A DNA stretch of 64,000 bases from the NCBI RefSeq assembly GCF_006715305.1, contig NZ_VFMY01000001.1, positions 3,410,001 through 3,474,000 on the forward strand. Direction: 5' to 3'. Position numbers and translations under genes: made by a program. The stretch comes from Arthrobacter sp. SLBN-100. Its GTDB lineage: Bacteria > Actinomycetota > Actinomycetes > Actinomycetales > Micrococcaceae. Under the pieces are notes generated by a model. The model was given only the letters and a program-made list of their open reading frames with translations, did not search any database and was not told the origin of the DNA. Numbering within the stretch: the stretch's first letter is position 1; every line of letters begins with the position of its first letter. Shown in pieces: positions 41,745 to 47,606 of the stretch.

Positions 41745-42449
41745 CTATTTCGCCTCGAGCACCAGGTTCTTGAGGTCGTCCAGGGTCTGCTGCATGTGCG
41801 CGTCCATCGCTTCGCGTGAGCGTGCAGCATCCCGGGATTCCAGCGCTTCGGCGATGTTCTGGTGATGCCCGATGGCGTGCACCTGGATCTCGGGCACCGC
41901 TGACGTTTCAGTCCGCCGCTTTTCCAGGACCCGGTGGAGCGGTTCGAAGAGAACGGCCACAAAAACGTTCTCGGAGGAGTGCAGGATCAGGTCGTGGAAA
42001 GCGAGGTCCGCTTCCACAAACGCGGCAACGTCATTCACCTCGTGGGCGGCGCGCATGGCGGCCACGTGGCCGAAGAGCGCCTGGATATCAGCGTCAGTGA
42101 TCCGTCCGGCCGCGAGTTCACAGGCCCCCGTCTCCAGCATGCGCCGGAGTTCGATGAGCTGGACGGAAGCCTCTGCTTCGTTTTTGCCTTCGGAGGCAGC
42201 GCGCAGGACAGCCTCCAGGGAGGCCCACCGGTTGAGCGGGTTCACGAAGGTGCCGCGGCCGCGCTCCACACTGAGGATCCGCTGCGCCTCAAGTGTCTTC
42301 ATGGCCTCGCGGACGGTCATCCGGCTGACTTCGTGCCTCGCGCTGAGCTCGTGCTCTCCGGGAACGGTGGCGCCGGGCGGAAATTCTCCTGCAATGATGC
42401 GGTCCAGGAGCTCGTCGGCCACCTGCCCTACCAGCGACTTCCTTGCCAT
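41745..42449 (-). CDS. GntR-family (FCD) regulator of the acid-sugar operon
   Basis: A 234-residue repressor. The N-terminal winged helix (KSLVGQVADELLDRIIAGEF; HEVSRMTVREAMKTLEAQRIL) is followed by a C-terminal FCD domain with a metal-binding pattern (EADLAFHDLILHSSEN; HHQNIAEAL). It is divergent from the kinase gene, with two TGTCAGACA-containing sites in the shared promoter. By analogy with regulators of threonate and galactonate genes it probably senses an aldonic acid or its oxo form. Confidence 0.88.
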   Translation of the reverse strand: MARKSLVGQVADELLDRIIAGEFPPGATVPGEHELSARHEVSRMTVREAMKTLEAQRILSVERGRGTFVNPLNRWASLEAVLRAASEGKNEAEASVQLIELRRMLETGACELAAGRITDADIQALFGHVAAMRAAHEVNDVAAFVEADLAFHDLILHSSENVFVAVLFEPLHRVLEKRRTETSAVPEIQVHAIGHHQNIAEALESRDAARSREAMDAHMQQTLDDLKNLVLEAK

Positions 42450-42480
42450 GCTGCTGCCCCCATCACTGCCTTTGTGGATA

Positions 42481-42489
42481 TGTCAGACA
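42481..42489. promoter_or_regulatory. Predicted GntR operator 1
   Basis: TGTCAGACA, identical to the core of operator 2, lies 32 bp upstream of the GntR start codon. Confidence 0.55.
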
Positions 42490-42539
42490 AGTCTACTTGC
42501 GCGTTTTTATGTCGTGTGCCACACTGACATTCAAATGCA

Positions 42540-42554
42540 AGATGTCAGACATCT
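42540..42554. promoter_or_regulatory. Predicted GntR operator 2
   Basis: AGATGTCAGACATCT has perfect 7-bp arms around a central A. Its centre is 62 bp from that of operator 1, between the divergent regulator and kinase genes. Confidence 0.68.
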
Positions 42555-42610
42555 TACAGTTTCCTTTACATCAGGATCCGCCCCCGGATCCATACACAAC
42601 GGAGTGCAGC

Positions 42611-44140
<1,530 letters not shown>

Positions 44141-44143
44141 CCC

Positions 44144-44156
44144 GTGGTTGAGCCTG
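44144..44156 (+). repeat. GTGGTTGAGCCTG intergenic repeat
   Basis: Identical to 13 bp at 38988-39000. Here it lies just after the kinase stop codon and next to the 33-bp repeat, suggesting a composite element. Confidence 0.6.
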
Positions 44157-44168
44157 GGCCCACACGTG

Positions 44169-44201
44169 CAGGGTCCCCTGGCCGAGCTTGCGAGGCTAGG
44201 G
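44169..44201 (-). repeat. Dispersed 33-bp intergenic repeat, copy 2
   Basis: The reverse complement of this stretch matches 26521-26553 at 30 of 33 positions. Its central part can fold (CCTGGCC with GGCTAGG). It lies within the acid-sugar operon, between kinase and dehydrogenase genes. Confidence 0.65.
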
Positions 44202-44274
44202 GGCACGTGGGGAGCGAAACCAATCACCGGCACAACCCCAATCACCACCCGCCAGAAATTCAATGGAGAACACC

Positions 44275-45174
44275 ATGACCAGCAACTACACCGTCACCGT
44301 TCTGGGCCTTGGCGCCATGGGCCTGCCCATGGCCACCCGCCTCGCATCCCAGCTGACCGTCCACGGCTTCGACATCGCCGAGTCCCGCCTTAAGCTCGCC
44401 GAAGAAGCCGGTATCGCCACCTTCAGCACCGCCCGTGAAGCCGCCAAGGGCGCAGACGCAGTGCTCCTGGCCGTCCGCAACGGCGAACAGCTCAACGACG
44501 TCCTCTTCGGCGAGAACGGCGTGGCCTCGGTGCTGGAGGCGGGCGGCGTCGTCATCCTCGGCAGCACCGTGGGCACCGATGCCATCCCGGCCACCGTGGC
44601 CAAGCTGGCCGAATACGGAGTCGAGCTCGTTGACGCCCCGCTGTCCGGCGGCCCCAAGCGCGCCGGCGAAGGCGACCTGCTGATCGTCGTCGGTGCTTCC
44701 CCCGAGGCCCGCGAAAAGGCAGCTCCCGCGCTGGAACTCCTGGCTTCCACCCTCACTGTTGTGGGCGATAAACCCGGCGATGGCCAGGCCCTGAAGACCG
44801 TGAACCAGCTGCTCTGCGGCGTCCACATCGCCGCTGCTGCCGAGGCCATGGCCCTTGCCGACGCACTGGGGCTGGACCAGGCCAAGACCCTGGCCGCCCT
44901 CGAAGCCGGTGCTGCGGGCTCATTTATGCTCTCCAACCGCGGCCCGCGCATCCTTGAGGCCTACAACGAGGAAGGCGCCGAGGTCCTCTCCCGCCTGGAC
45001 ATCTTCGTCAAGGACATGGGCATCGTGGGCAAGGCGACCCGCGCCGCCGGCCTTGCAGCGCCCGTTGCCGCCGCCGCGGAGCAGCTCTACCTGCTGGGAC
45101 AGGCCCAGGGCCTCGCCGCCGCCGATGACTCCGCCGTCATCAAGGTGGTCGCCCCCACCAAGCGCACCAAGTAG
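44275..45174 (+). CDS. NAD-dependent dehydrogenase, LtnD/3-hydroxyisobutyrate dehydrogenase family
   Basis: A 299-residue beta-hydroxyacid dehydrogenase. VLGLGAMGLPMATRLA is the NAD(P) motif, DAPLSGGPKRAGEGDL the substrate motif, and GQALKTVNQLLCGVH carries the catalytic Lys near residue 172. L-threonate 2-dehydrogenase LtnD is in this family. In context it should oxidise C2 of a tetronate (L-threonate or D-erythronate), giving the oxo-acid that feeds the kinase. GGAG lies 7 nt before ATG 44275; another ATG 12 bp upstream overlaps that site and is less likely. A terminator-like hairpin lies between it and the permease gene. Confidence 0.88.
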   Translation: MTSNYTVTVLGLGAMGLPMATRLASQLTVHGFDIAESRLKLAEEAGIATFSTAREAAKGADAVLLAVRNGEQLNDVLFGENGVASVLEAGGVVILGSTVGTDAIPATVAKLAEYGVELVDAPLSGGPKRAGEGDLLIVVGASPEAREKAAPALELLASTLTVVGDKPGDGQALKTVNQLLCGVHIAAAAEAMALADALGLDQAKTLAALEAGAAGSFMLSNRGPRILEAYNEEGAEVLSRLDIFVKDMGIVGKATRAAGLAAPVAAAAEQLYLLGQAQGLAAADDSAVIKVVAPTKRTK

Positions 45175-45197
45175 CAAATCGCCCCTCAAAAGAAGCC

Positions 45198-45229
45198 CGA
45201 CGACGGCGGTCCCCCCTCCGCCGTCGTCG
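45198..45229 (+). terminator. Internal hairpin between dehydrogenase and permease genes
   Basis: CGACGACGGCGG (45198-45209) pairs perfectly with CCGCCGTCGTCG (45218-45229), with an 8-nt pyrimidine-rich loop. No T-run follows. It could reduce expression of permease and aldolase or separate mRNA stability zones. Confidence 0.6.
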
Positions 45230-45279
45230 TATCCACCCAGTTCGCTAGGCTTAACTAGCGATGTCAAAGGAGACACACG

Positions 45280-46698
45280 ATGAGCGCATTAGCTCTTCTG
45301 GCCATAGCAGTGGCGGGCGTCGCCCTGCTGCTCGTGGCCGTCATCAAGTTCAAGATTCCCGCGTTCCTTGCCCTGCTCGTGGTCAGCGTGGCAGTCGCCC
45401 TGGTGGCAGGTATCCCGCTGCCGGACATCATCAAAACCGTTACTGAAGGCATGGGCGGAACCCTTGGATCCGTGGCCATCCTGGTTGGCCTGGGCGCGAT
45501 GCTGGGCAAAATGATCGAGATTTCCGGCGGCGCACAGTCCCTTGCCGGCAAATTCACCCAACTGCTCGGCCCCCGCAGGGTCATCGCCGCCCTGACGTCC
45601 GCAGCCTTCCTGCTGGCCATCCCGGTCTTCTTCGACGTCGGATTCATCATCCTCATCCCCATCATCTACGGCTTCGCCAAGGCTGCAGGGGTCAACCCCG
45701 TCAAGATCGGCCTGCCCGTCGGGGCGATCATGCTGGCCATCCACGTTGTTGTTCCGCCGCACCCCGGCGTGGTGGGCGGTGCCGGTATCCTCGGCGCGGA
45801 CATCGGCTGGGCCACCATCATCGGACTCACCCTTTGCATCCCCGTGGGCGTCCTGGGTTACTTCGTTGCCCGCAGGCTCAACCGCCGCGACTTCGCCATG
45901 CTGCCCGCCACCGCCGAGCAGTTCCGCCTCTTTGGCACCGGCACTTCGCAGGTAGAGCGGGAAGCAGCCCAGGGCTCGTCCAACGTCGCCGTCAAGACCG
46001 AGGTCAAGACGGCCCCCAGCCCGGCCATGATCATCTCCCTGATTGTCCTTCCGATCCTCATGATCATGGTGGGAACTGTCGGCGCTGTCATCCTGCCCAA
46101 GGACAGCTTTGCTTCGCAGCTTGCCGCTTTTGTCGGAGCTCCGCTGATCGCCCTCCTCACTGCCCTGGGCCTGGCCTACTACTTCCTGGGCATCCGCCGC
46201 GGCTGGTCCTCGCAGCACACCGGCGAAGTCATGGACTCCGCACTGGCCCCCACCGCGATCGTCATCCTGGTCACCGGCGCCGGCGGCGTCTTCGGCAAGG
46301 TGCTCACCGTCTCCGGCATCGGCAAAGCCCTCGCGGAAGGCCTGCAGACTGCCGGCCTCCCGGTCATCGTGATGGCCTTCGTCCTCGCGGCCATCCTGCG
46401 CGCATCCCAGGGGTCCGCTACGGTGGCCATCATCACCACTTCCGGCCTGCTGGCAGCATCCGTGGCCGACGGCGGCTTCTCACCTTTCCAGACCGCACTC
46501 ATCCTTGTTGCCATGGGCTTCGGCGCGTTTGGCCTCAGCCACGTCAATGACTCCGGTTTCTGGATCGTCACCCGCTTCCTGGGCCTCTCGGTGGCAGACG
46601 GGCTCAAGACCTGGACGGTGCTCACCACCATCCTGGGCGTTGCAGGGTTCGCGCTCACCTTCCTGGTCTGGATCCTCACCGGCGGACTCACCGTCTGA
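45280..46698 (+). CDS. GntP-family sugar-acid permease
   Basis: A 472-residue membrane protein with about 12-14 hydrophobic segments. GntP features are visible: GMGGTLGSVAILVGLGAMLGKMIEISGGA, HVVVPPHPGVVGGAGILGADIGW, ILRASQGSATVAIITT and HVNDSGFWIVTRFLG. The family imports gluconate and other aldonates by proton symport. The operon points to threonate, erythronate or a related four-carbon acid. AAAGGAGACACACG precedes ATG 45280. Its stop overlaps the aldolase start (TGATG). Confidence 0.92.
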   Translation: MSALALLAIAVAGVALLLVAVIKFKIPAFLALLVVSVAVALVAGIPLPDIIKTVTEGMGGTLGSVAILVGLGAMLGKMIEISGGAQSLAGKFTQLLGPRRVIAALTSAAFLLAIPVFFDVGFIILIPIIYGFAKAAGVNPVKIGLPVGAIMLAIHVVVPPHPGVVGGAGILGADIGWATIIGLTLCIPVGVLGYFVARRLNRRDFAMLPATAEQFRLFGTGTSQVEREAAQGSSNVAVKTEVKTAPSPAMIISLIVLPILMIMVGTVGAVILPKDSFASQLAAFVGAPLIALLTALGLAYYFLGIRRGWSSQHTGEVMDSALAPTAIVILVTGAGGVFGKVLTVSGIGKALAEGLQTAGLPVIVMAFVLAAILRASQGSATVAIITTSGLLAASVADGGFSPFQTALILVAMGFGAFGLSHVNDSGFWIVTRFLGLSVADGLKTWTVLTTILGVAGFALTFLVWILTGGLTV

Positions 46699-47549
46699 TG
46701 CGCACCCGACTCGACCACCTGGTCACTGCCGCCCTCCAGCACGGGTCCGCCGTCCCGGCCTTCACCTGCTACGACTTCACCACCGCGCTGGCCGTGGTGG
46801 CCGCTGCGGAGGAAGCCGGCCGGGGCGTGATCCTGCTGGTGGCTCCCAAGACCGCGGCCACGCCCAACGGACTGCGCCTCATCGGAGCCCTCCGCGGCCT
46901 CGCCGACGCCGCGGCAGTTCCGGTCGCAGTGCAGCTTGACCACGCAACCGACCTGGAAGTGATGGCCGACGCCGTCGCGGCGGGGGCGGATTCCGTCCTC
47001 GCCGACGGTTCCTCCCTCCCTTACGAGGACAACATCGCGCTGGTCCAGGCGGCCCGCGGGGTGCTGGGACCGGACGTGGTGCTGGAAGCCGAGCTGGGCG
47101 GCCTGGCAGGAGACGAGGACCGCGCCTTCGGCGAGGACCAGTCCGGTGTGTCCGTGGCCGGCCTGACGGATTCGGCGCAGGTGGAGGACTTCGTGTCCCG
47201 GACCGGCGCGGAGCTGCTGGCGGTCGCCGTCGGAAATGTCCACGGCAAGTACAAGGGGGAGCCGCAGCTGCGCTGGGATGTCCTGCAGGATATTGCCGTG
47301 CGGACCCATATTCCGCTGGTGCTCCACGGCGCCTCCGGTATTCCTGCCGGGGAGCTGGTGAAGGCGGCGTCCATGAACGTCGGCAAGGTCAACTTCAACA
47401 CCGAGCTCCGCACCGGCGTCCTGGCCACGCTGCAGGAGCAGCTGCCGGCCCACCGGTCCGACGGCGAAAACCTCCAGGGGCTCCTGGGTCACTGGAACCG
47501 CTCCGCGGGCAGCTTCGCAAGCACCGCATTGGCGACGCTCACGCGCTGA
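46698..47549 (+). CDS. Class II (zinc) ketose-bisphosphate aldolase-like enzyme
   Basis: A 283-residue class II FBA-type TIM barrel. VAVQLDHATD (~residue 76) has the catalytic Asp and a zinc-ligand His. Further features are LEAELGGLAG (~133), AVAVGNVHGKYKG (second zinc His, ~180), LVLHGASGIP (third zinc His) and VGKVNFNTELR (phosphate binding). It should cleave or decarboxylate the phosphorylated oxo-acid made by the kinase, releasing dihydroxyacetone phosphate. In the known threonate pathway that step is done by OtnC, of a different aldolase family, so this enzyme may replace it. ATG 46698 overlaps the permease stop. A strong terminator follows. Confidence 0.88.
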   Translation: MRTRLDHLVTAALQHGSAVPAFTCYDFTTALAVVAAAEEAGRGVILLVAPKTAATPNGLRLIGALRGLADAAAVPVAVQLDHATDLEVMADAVAAGADSVLADGSSLPYEDNIALVQAARGVLGPDVVLEAELGGLAGDEDRAFGEDQSGVSVAGLTDSAQVEDFVSRTGAELLAVAVGNVHGKYKGEPQLRWDVLQDIAVRTHIPLVLHGASGIPAGELVKAASMNVGKVNFNTELRTGVLATLQEQLPAHRSDGENLQGLLGHWNRSAGSFASTALATLTR

Positions 47550-47561
47550 AATTTTCCCGCA

Positions 47562-47606
47562 GGGGGAGGCCAGGATCAAGCAATGGTCCTGGCCTCCCCC
47601 TTTTTT
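47562..47606 (+). terminator. Intrinsic terminator of the acid-sugar operon
   Basis: A perfect 14-bp stem (47562-47575 with 47587-47600), an 11-nt loop and a TTTTTT tail at 47601-47606. It is the clearest rho-independent terminator in the window. Confidence 0.92.

Follow-up and report, generated by a model that had tools for sequence, protein, structure and literature searches.

A GntR-controlled operon of Arthrobacter sp. SLBN-100 that probably serves an OtnI-free route from L-threonate to dihydroxyacetone phosphate

L-Threonate is a breakdown product of plant vitamin C. The route for D-threonate consists of DtnK and PdxA2 and also employs a kinase of the DUF1537 family. In Escherichia coli, the genes ygbJKLMN are annotated as coding for putative LtnD, OtnK, OtnC and OtnI, together with YgbN. 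A shorter bacterial route, which omits the isomerase and proceeds in three steps through LtnD, 2-OtnK and 2-OtnC, the last being an enzyme with an F_bP_aldolase domain, is credited to Guo et al. 2024 in the available part of Yamamoto et al. 2025 (PMC12540250), in which Arthrobacter sp. ZBG10 is the source of the compared proteins of this route. The same part names the Arabidopsis protein AT1G18270 LTD, and describes it as containing two dehydrogenase units, the SBD_N/NBD_C pair and a C-terminal F_bP_aldolase domain. The locus considered here lies in a stretch of 64,000 nucleotides (the window; positions 3,410,001-3,474,000 of a larger contig) from the genome of Arthrobacter sp. SLBN-100, which measures 4.94 Mb and is rated 99.99% complete. 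It is read as an L-threonate operon under GntR control which codes for the short route without OtnI, leading to dihydroxyacetone phosphate (DHAP), a reading to which a probability of about 85% is given.

The locus codes for a divergently transcribed GntR/FCD regulator, followed by a DUF1537 kinase, an LtnD-like dehydrogenase, a GntP-family permease and a class II fructose-bisphosphate aldolase (FBA)-type enzyme. These are the five genes which the initial annotation had placed here, and the main domains of all five proteins far exceed their Pfam cut-offs (Table 1). The three enzyme families, the omission of OtnI, the F_bP_aldolase-type last enzyme and the bacterial group are all shared with the ZBG10 route in the available part of PMC12540250, and the operon is the same kind of system as this published route. 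The initial annotation was right in outline, but its suggestion that the chemistry of the last step may be new no longer stands: an OtnI-free route ending in an F_bP_aldolase enzyme is in print for Arthrobacter sp. ZBG10, as is the link to the plant protein LTD, and its central novelty has thus already been published (PMC12540250, part available). What the present analysis adds is an operator candidate with its regulon, a terminator, and a residue signature which can be mutated in order to test the passage from aldolase fold to decarboxylase. The regulator, operator and terminator do not figure in the examined portion of that text.

The other described systems resemble the operon in part. The E. 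coli ygbJKLMN products are similar in dehydrogenase (35% identity between LtnD and YgbJ) and permease (57%), whereas the kinases share no significant BLASTP similarity, an isomerase gene is present in E. coli, and YgbL, which occupies the place of the decarboxylase, is not similar to the operon aldolase. The D-threonate route likewise contains a DUF1537 kinase, yet one from another branch, and it ends in a PdxA-type enzyme; the DUF1537-PdxA gene of the present genome lies at a separate locus. Plant LTD has the same dehydrogenase, DUF1537 kinase and F_bP_aldolase domains, but in one chain with two dehydrogenase units, and its kinase falls in a branch with fungi next to Chloroflexota.

The arrangement of the genes is widely conserved. 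Scanning genomes with the aldolase yielded 228 confirmed relatives, of which the best 80 underlie all counts on relatives given here, neighbouring genes being counted as matched at E 1e-15 or better. The closest relatives retrieved belong to Arthrobacter and Pseudarthrobacter. All five genes were found in the same order and on the same strands in 69 of the 80, which argues that the arrangement is not due to chance. Among the remaining 11, nine lack a permease match at this threshold, one retains kinase, dehydrogenase and aldolase, and one kinase and aldolase; in these last two the kinase match begins less than 200 bases from a contig end. In many of the 69 full loci the permease is just 53-57% identical, against 72-97% for the three enzymes of the same loci, which suggests an exchange of the transporter. 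Among 197 genomes sampled across the class, 8 gave a kinase match and 15 an aldolase match (E 1e-30 or better), and only the source genome (100%) and one congener (81%) gave an aldolase above 39% identity. The initial annotation also described the genes as coupled. This is exact for the last pair only, in which the permease stop and the aldolase start share one base, since the other gaps measure 122 and 105 nucleotides.

Individual assignments agree with the proposed route to different degrees. The permease surpasses the NCBIfam PRK09821 cut-off (674 vs 524 bits), and the best NCBIfam model for the dehydrogenase is that of L-threonate dehydrogenase (ThreonDh). By BLASTP the kinase does not significantly match YgbK, the 3-OtnK of E. 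coli (best E 0.23), whereas the corresponding domains of LTD-type proteins from six plants are 35-36% identical to it (E 5e-75 to 5e-83). The Arabidopsis LTD kinase, when compared with 2-OtnK and YgbK, displays the same pattern of likeness in the available part of PMC12540250, so that the operon kinase, nearer to plant LTD than to YgbK, would by this comparison belong to the 2-OtnK type. No solved structure related to the kinase by sequence was found.

In the proposed route, the GntP permease would import L-threonate, which LtnD would oxidise at C2 to yield 2-oxo-tetronate. The DUF1537 kinase would then phosphorylate this product at O4, with no prior isomerisation, and the FBA-fold enzyme would convert 2-oxo-tetronate 4-phosphate to DHAP and CO2. 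In this last step a metal ion may bind the enediol of the substrate, such that the carbonyl moves from C2 to C3 before decarboxylation, which would pass through the same DHAP enediolate as in the aldolase reaction.

The aldolase itself matched 20 NCBIfam models, none of them above cut-off (best 174.5 of 423 bits), and is 34-36% identical to GatY, KbaY and YdjI alike, the latter being annotated as an octuluronate-1-phosphate aldolase. The solved structures which it matches best by sequence are annotated as ordinary class II aldolases. An alignment with KbaY shows that Asp81, His82, His182, His210, Ser213, Asn232 and Thr235 are kept, residues which we take to be the metal, catalytic and phosphate residues of class II aldolases. 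The residues at KbaY positions 82, 83, 180 and 208, with presumed metal and catalytic roles, are identical in the operon aldolase and in all 54 controls, namely 51 aligned PF01116 loci and three E. coli proteins; these loci are the best-scoring ones of the searches rather than a random sample, and the operon aldolase of the congener (L144) was excluded on purpose. The enzyme thus carries the conserved residues of an ordinary fructose or tagatose bisphosphate aldolase, yet reaches no curated NCBIfam cut-off. IolJ-type and YdjI-type enzymes perform a retro-aldol cut to DHAP and an aldehyde acid, and a true cut of this kind, acting on different or a wider range of acids (D-erythronate or a C5-C6 aldonate), would account for the retention of the residues that never vary among the panel's ordinary class II aldolases and for the comparable resemblance to YdjI and GatY/KbaY; D-erythronate is, moreover, also named in the title of Guo et al. 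2024, as cited in the available part of PMC12540250. Such an activity is nevertheless improbable in view of the kinase, which is similar to that of plant LTD and unlike YgbK, and of the transporter and dehydrogenase, which are of the YgbN and YgbJ kind.

Position 184 comes directly after His182-Gly183. All 80 operon aldolases have a basic residue there, Lys in 76 and Arg in 4. Of the 105 fusion proteins listed with more than 850 amino acids, a redundant set made up mostly of plants, 101 have Lys and the other four Thr or Ile. Among the 54 controls a single one has a basic residue (Arg), the five solved aldolases shown have none, and GatY and KbaY contain Met or Leu. Lys184, which adjoins a metal ligand, could hold the carboxylate of 2-oxo-tetronate 4-phosphate. 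Tyr25 is likewise shared, at 90% or above, by the operon (10) and plant (12) rows of the panel and is found in 0/54 controls. Two other candidates for the signature were dropped: Asn234, absent from the 54 controls yet occupying this position in all but one of the five solved aldolases shown, and Arg238, present in 27 of the 54. The single control with Arg at position 184 is L143 (G059:C1:3552400-3553239), from a genome in which no aldolase adjoins the kinase and dehydrogenase; with respect to a possible role as an unlinked 2-OtnC of that genome, no other operon gene was found near L143.

The initial annotation had observed that OtnI is not adjacent to the operon and that the FBA-type enzyme stands in the place of OtnC, and had allowed for a complete OtnI/OtnC pathway elsewhere. 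Across the genome as a whole, four matches to OtnI were found, none of them over cut-off (best 145 of 325 bits), and a single match to OtnC (70.8 bits, cut-off 250). A hidden OtnI/OtnC pathway was rejected, as both families were searched genome-wide and neither cut-off was reached. The best-scoring assignments of the two PF00596 proteins of the genome are L-ribulose-5-phosphate 4-epimerase for one and, for the other, the aldolase part of a RhaD-type bifunctional enzyme. Hydroxypyruvate isomerase and 3-hydroxyacid reductase occur together in glyoxylate routes. A four-step route, with 3-oxo-tetronate as the substrate of the kinase, decarboxylation as the sole task of the FBA-type enzyme and the OtnI step carried out by a hydroxypyruvate-isomerase-like protein coded elsewhere, could draw on the 27 PF01261 matches in the genome (26 over cut-off) and on the 145-bit match to OtnI, but is most improbable, since that same protein scores higher as a hydroxypyruvate isomerase (242 bits, cut-off 353), the neighbouring open reading frame resembles by eye a 3-hydroxyacid reductase, and the F_bP_aldolase route omits the isomerase (PMC12540250, available part).

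A second DUF1537 gene of the genome (L005:7200-10055, minus strand) codes for a fused DUF1537-PdxA protein of 951 amino acids and adjoins a gene for a DeoR-type regulator (L005:6305-7144). The PdxA part scores 360 bits, over the general PdxA cut-off of 290, and 336 of 583 bits as a D-threonate 4-phosphate dehydrogenase, under the cut-off. By its families, this protein possibly fits D-threonate, and not the acid of the operon.

Several observations weigh against the assignment of the operon to an OtnI-free L-threonate route. At 243.6 bits, LtnD remains below the equivalog cut-off of 350, and the sole NCBIfam match of the kinase is to D-threonate kinase, at 48 of 450 bits. The 12 plant aldolase domains give 115-147 bits against the operon aldolase and 163-195 against E. 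coli KbaY/GatY. Two genomes contain kinase and dehydrogenase without an adjacent FBA gene: in one (G106) kinase, dehydrogenase and permease are found without an adjacent aldolase, and in the other (G059) a GntR-FCD-DUF1537 fusion of 786 amino acids is followed by a dehydrogenase and an aldo/keto reductase. The third gene is therefore not an obligate neighbour of the other two. The likeness to the ZBG10 system is one of enzyme families. As for the plant, its L-threonate dehydrogenase activity depends on LTD, while the kinase and decarboxylase steps of LTD are undemonstrated, according to the available part of PMC12540250.

The relationship to the plant protein, of which the operon was initially thought to be the unfused version, differs from one enzyme to the next. 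A joined query of the operon proteins, scored over kinase and aldolase, gave 282 matches, and among the best 120, which were listed, the plant single-chain protein with dehydrogenase, DUF1537 and F_bP_aldolase domains was confirmed, its kinase and aldolase stretch being 34-37% identical over ~90% coverage. In six plants, the second dehydrogenase unit is 37-39% identical to LtnD, and the aldolase domain is 36-40% identical to the operon aldolase (E 4e-33 to 3e-38). E. coli YgbJ is nearer to the plant dehydrogenase (40-44%) than is the operon LtnD, while YgbK has no significant match to the kinase; by these comparisons it is thus the kinase which constitutes the specific link between the operon and the plant protein. 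Closer unfused relatives of the plant kinase nevertheless sit outside Arthrobacter. Among the named non-plant matches to the plant kinase domain (within 120 listed, most without a name), those of Chloroflexota and fungi are closest (52-56%). In a tree whose rows were picked for matching the plant query, with YgbK and the DUF1537-PdxA protein of the genome set as outgroup, plants, fungi and one other eukaryote were grouped (100/98); Chloroflexota and a planctomycete adjoin this group, from which the Arthrobacter kinases are separate.

As regards the third enzyme, the 12 plant aldolase domains score 156-184 bits against another actinobacterial PF01116 protein (L115), the identities in these comparisons being 36-42% and 35-41%. 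By these scores, the plant domain is not specifically closer to the operon aldolase than to GatY/KbaY, and as it scores higher against the latter, a shared origin for this third step's enzyme is unproven. An aldolase tree was discarded as proof of such an origin: plant and operon sequences join in it (94/82), but under a long-branch warning (operon stem 2.07), and when the plants are omitted, the operon aldolases stand on a 55/0 branch. The idea of an unfused plant pathway thus holds for the domain architecture and for the kinase; it is qualified by the aldolase scores and by the closest relatives of the plant kinase. Of the recombinant domains of the plant enzyme, the one that was soluble was inactive (PMC12540250, available part). 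As expression of the plant protein at full length did not succeed (same source), the separate bacterial proteins offer a practical stand-in for its last two steps. Stand-alone fungal DUF1537 kinases (P0259, P0263, P0272, P0312, P0314 and P0337, from Penicillium, Aspergillus and others) cluster in the tree with the kinase domain of plants, so that an L-threonate-type pathway may exist in fungi as well. In P0001-P0010, P0013, P0014 and P0037, LtnD-type and DUF1537 domains are fused without an aldolase (732-803 amino acids).

The region between regulator and kinase contains both of the sites at which TGTCNGACA occurs in the entire window (42481-42489 and 42543-42551). In an intergenic alignment of 67 loci, window included, the arms of the core AGATGTC-N-GACATCT are invariant except at one base (66/67), the centre base being variable, and the outermost bases of the main operator candidate are less conserved (0.54 and 0.87). 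At least one copy of TGTCNGACA is present in all 66 relatives with a short intergenic region, 44 of which have two, against a background of 10 copies in 957 kb of the rest of those 66 loci. The 12 relatives with a long intergenic region, containing an extra gene, all possess at least one copy, and 11 of them two; in the remaining two of the 80, the regulator is not on the contig. The GntR/FCD protein is probably the repressor of the operon, and would bind AGATGTC-N-GACATCT just downstream of the promoter, a position which suggests that repression is relieved by a pathway intermediate. The putative promoter is weak and was placed by eye, as were its position and similarity across loci, in seven rows of the alignment; a consensus promoter scan did not report it. 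The kinase is likely to start at GTG 42611, which is a start codon in 63 of the 67 loci and has GGAG a few bases upstream in the window, since the alternative ATG at 42542, although kept in all 67, lies inside the operator. Terminator-like sites number three, against a shuffled mean of 4.3, and are thus no more numerous than expected by chance; their stems have 18, 12 and 5 pairs, the longest being that of the candidate which follows the operon.

Table 1. Features of the predicted L-threonate operon (positions in the window) and relatives carrying an additional gene
Feature	Position or loci	Strand	Remarks
GntR/FCD-family transcriptional regulator	41745..42449	-	Pfam GntR 71.8 bits, FCD 91 bits; divergent from operon; matched in 78/80 relatives
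Distal operator candidate TGTCAGACA	42481..42489	.	arms agree with window 0.87 on average in 67 aligned loci, vs 0.66 outside sites
Putative promoter TTGCGC - 17 - CACACT	42497..42525	+	placed by eye, weak; 3/6 consensus bases per hexamer
Main operator candidate AAGATGTC-A-GACATCTT	42539..42555	.	conserved core AGATGTC-N-GACATCT at 42540-42554
DUF1537 kinase (SBD_N + NBD_C), 2-OtnK type	42611..44140	+	Pfam 149 and 119.5 bits
L-threonate dehydrogenase-like (LtnD), HIBADH superfamily	44263..45174	+	Pfam NAD_binding_2 and NAD_binding_11
GntP-family permease, YgbN-like	45280..46698	+	PRK09821 674 bits; 57% identity to YgbN
Class II FBA-type aldolase, predicted 2-OtnC type (2-oxo-tetronate 4-phosphate decarboxylase)	46698..47549	+	F_bP_aldolase PF01116, 214 bits
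Intrinsic terminator candidate	47561..47601	+	18-pair stem then T run, right after last stop codon
Hydrolase-carrying loci	L087, L089, L091, L095-L099, L101, L102, L105, L107		~1 kb between regulator and kinase

The extra gene, found in 12 of the 80 relatives, codes for an alpha/beta hydrolase and is located on the strand of the regulator; the motif flanks it in 11 of the 12. The hydrolase may release threonate from an ester or lactone. A literature search for "oxalyl-threonate" retrieved no paper with this term, although the spelling "oxalyl-L-threonate" would escape it. A broader but doubtful proposal is that the FBA fold gave rise repeatedly to an isomerising decarboxylase, once among the Arthrobacter group and once, independently, toward the land-plant chain, both lines gaining a carboxylate-gripping basic residue beside the metal ligand (HG-K-Y), while the kinase and dehydrogenase were kept and the third enzymes changed, and that the Paenarthrobacter-type regulon adds a hydrolase which frees threonate from an ester of plant ascorbate breakdown, such as oxalyl-threonate, or from threonolactone.

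Other loci depart from the common arrangement. In Pseudarthrobacter phenanthrenivorans SWC37, a kinase-aldolase pair is located at a contig end (L063:194-2666), where the 9.7 kb examined gave neither a dehydrogenase nor a permease match; a full operon of the same strain is found in L067. The contig of G037 ends after the permease, and the matches in L133 are limited to the kinase and a GntR gene. Fusions of regulator and kinase (GntR, FCD and DUF1537) are coded by L130:6330-8690 (minus strand, 786 amino acids) and by P0011 of Phycicoccus flavus (738 amino acids). Other Actinobacteria surround the kinase with other genes: besides the arrangements of G106 and G059, a DUF1537 kinase is accompanied by an HpcH/HpaI aldolase and a short-chain dehydrogenase in G154, and at L132:6578-9580 such a kinase, a relative of that of the operon, directly precedes an aldolase of the HpcH/HpaI type and a short-chain dehydrogenase, a different set of partners.

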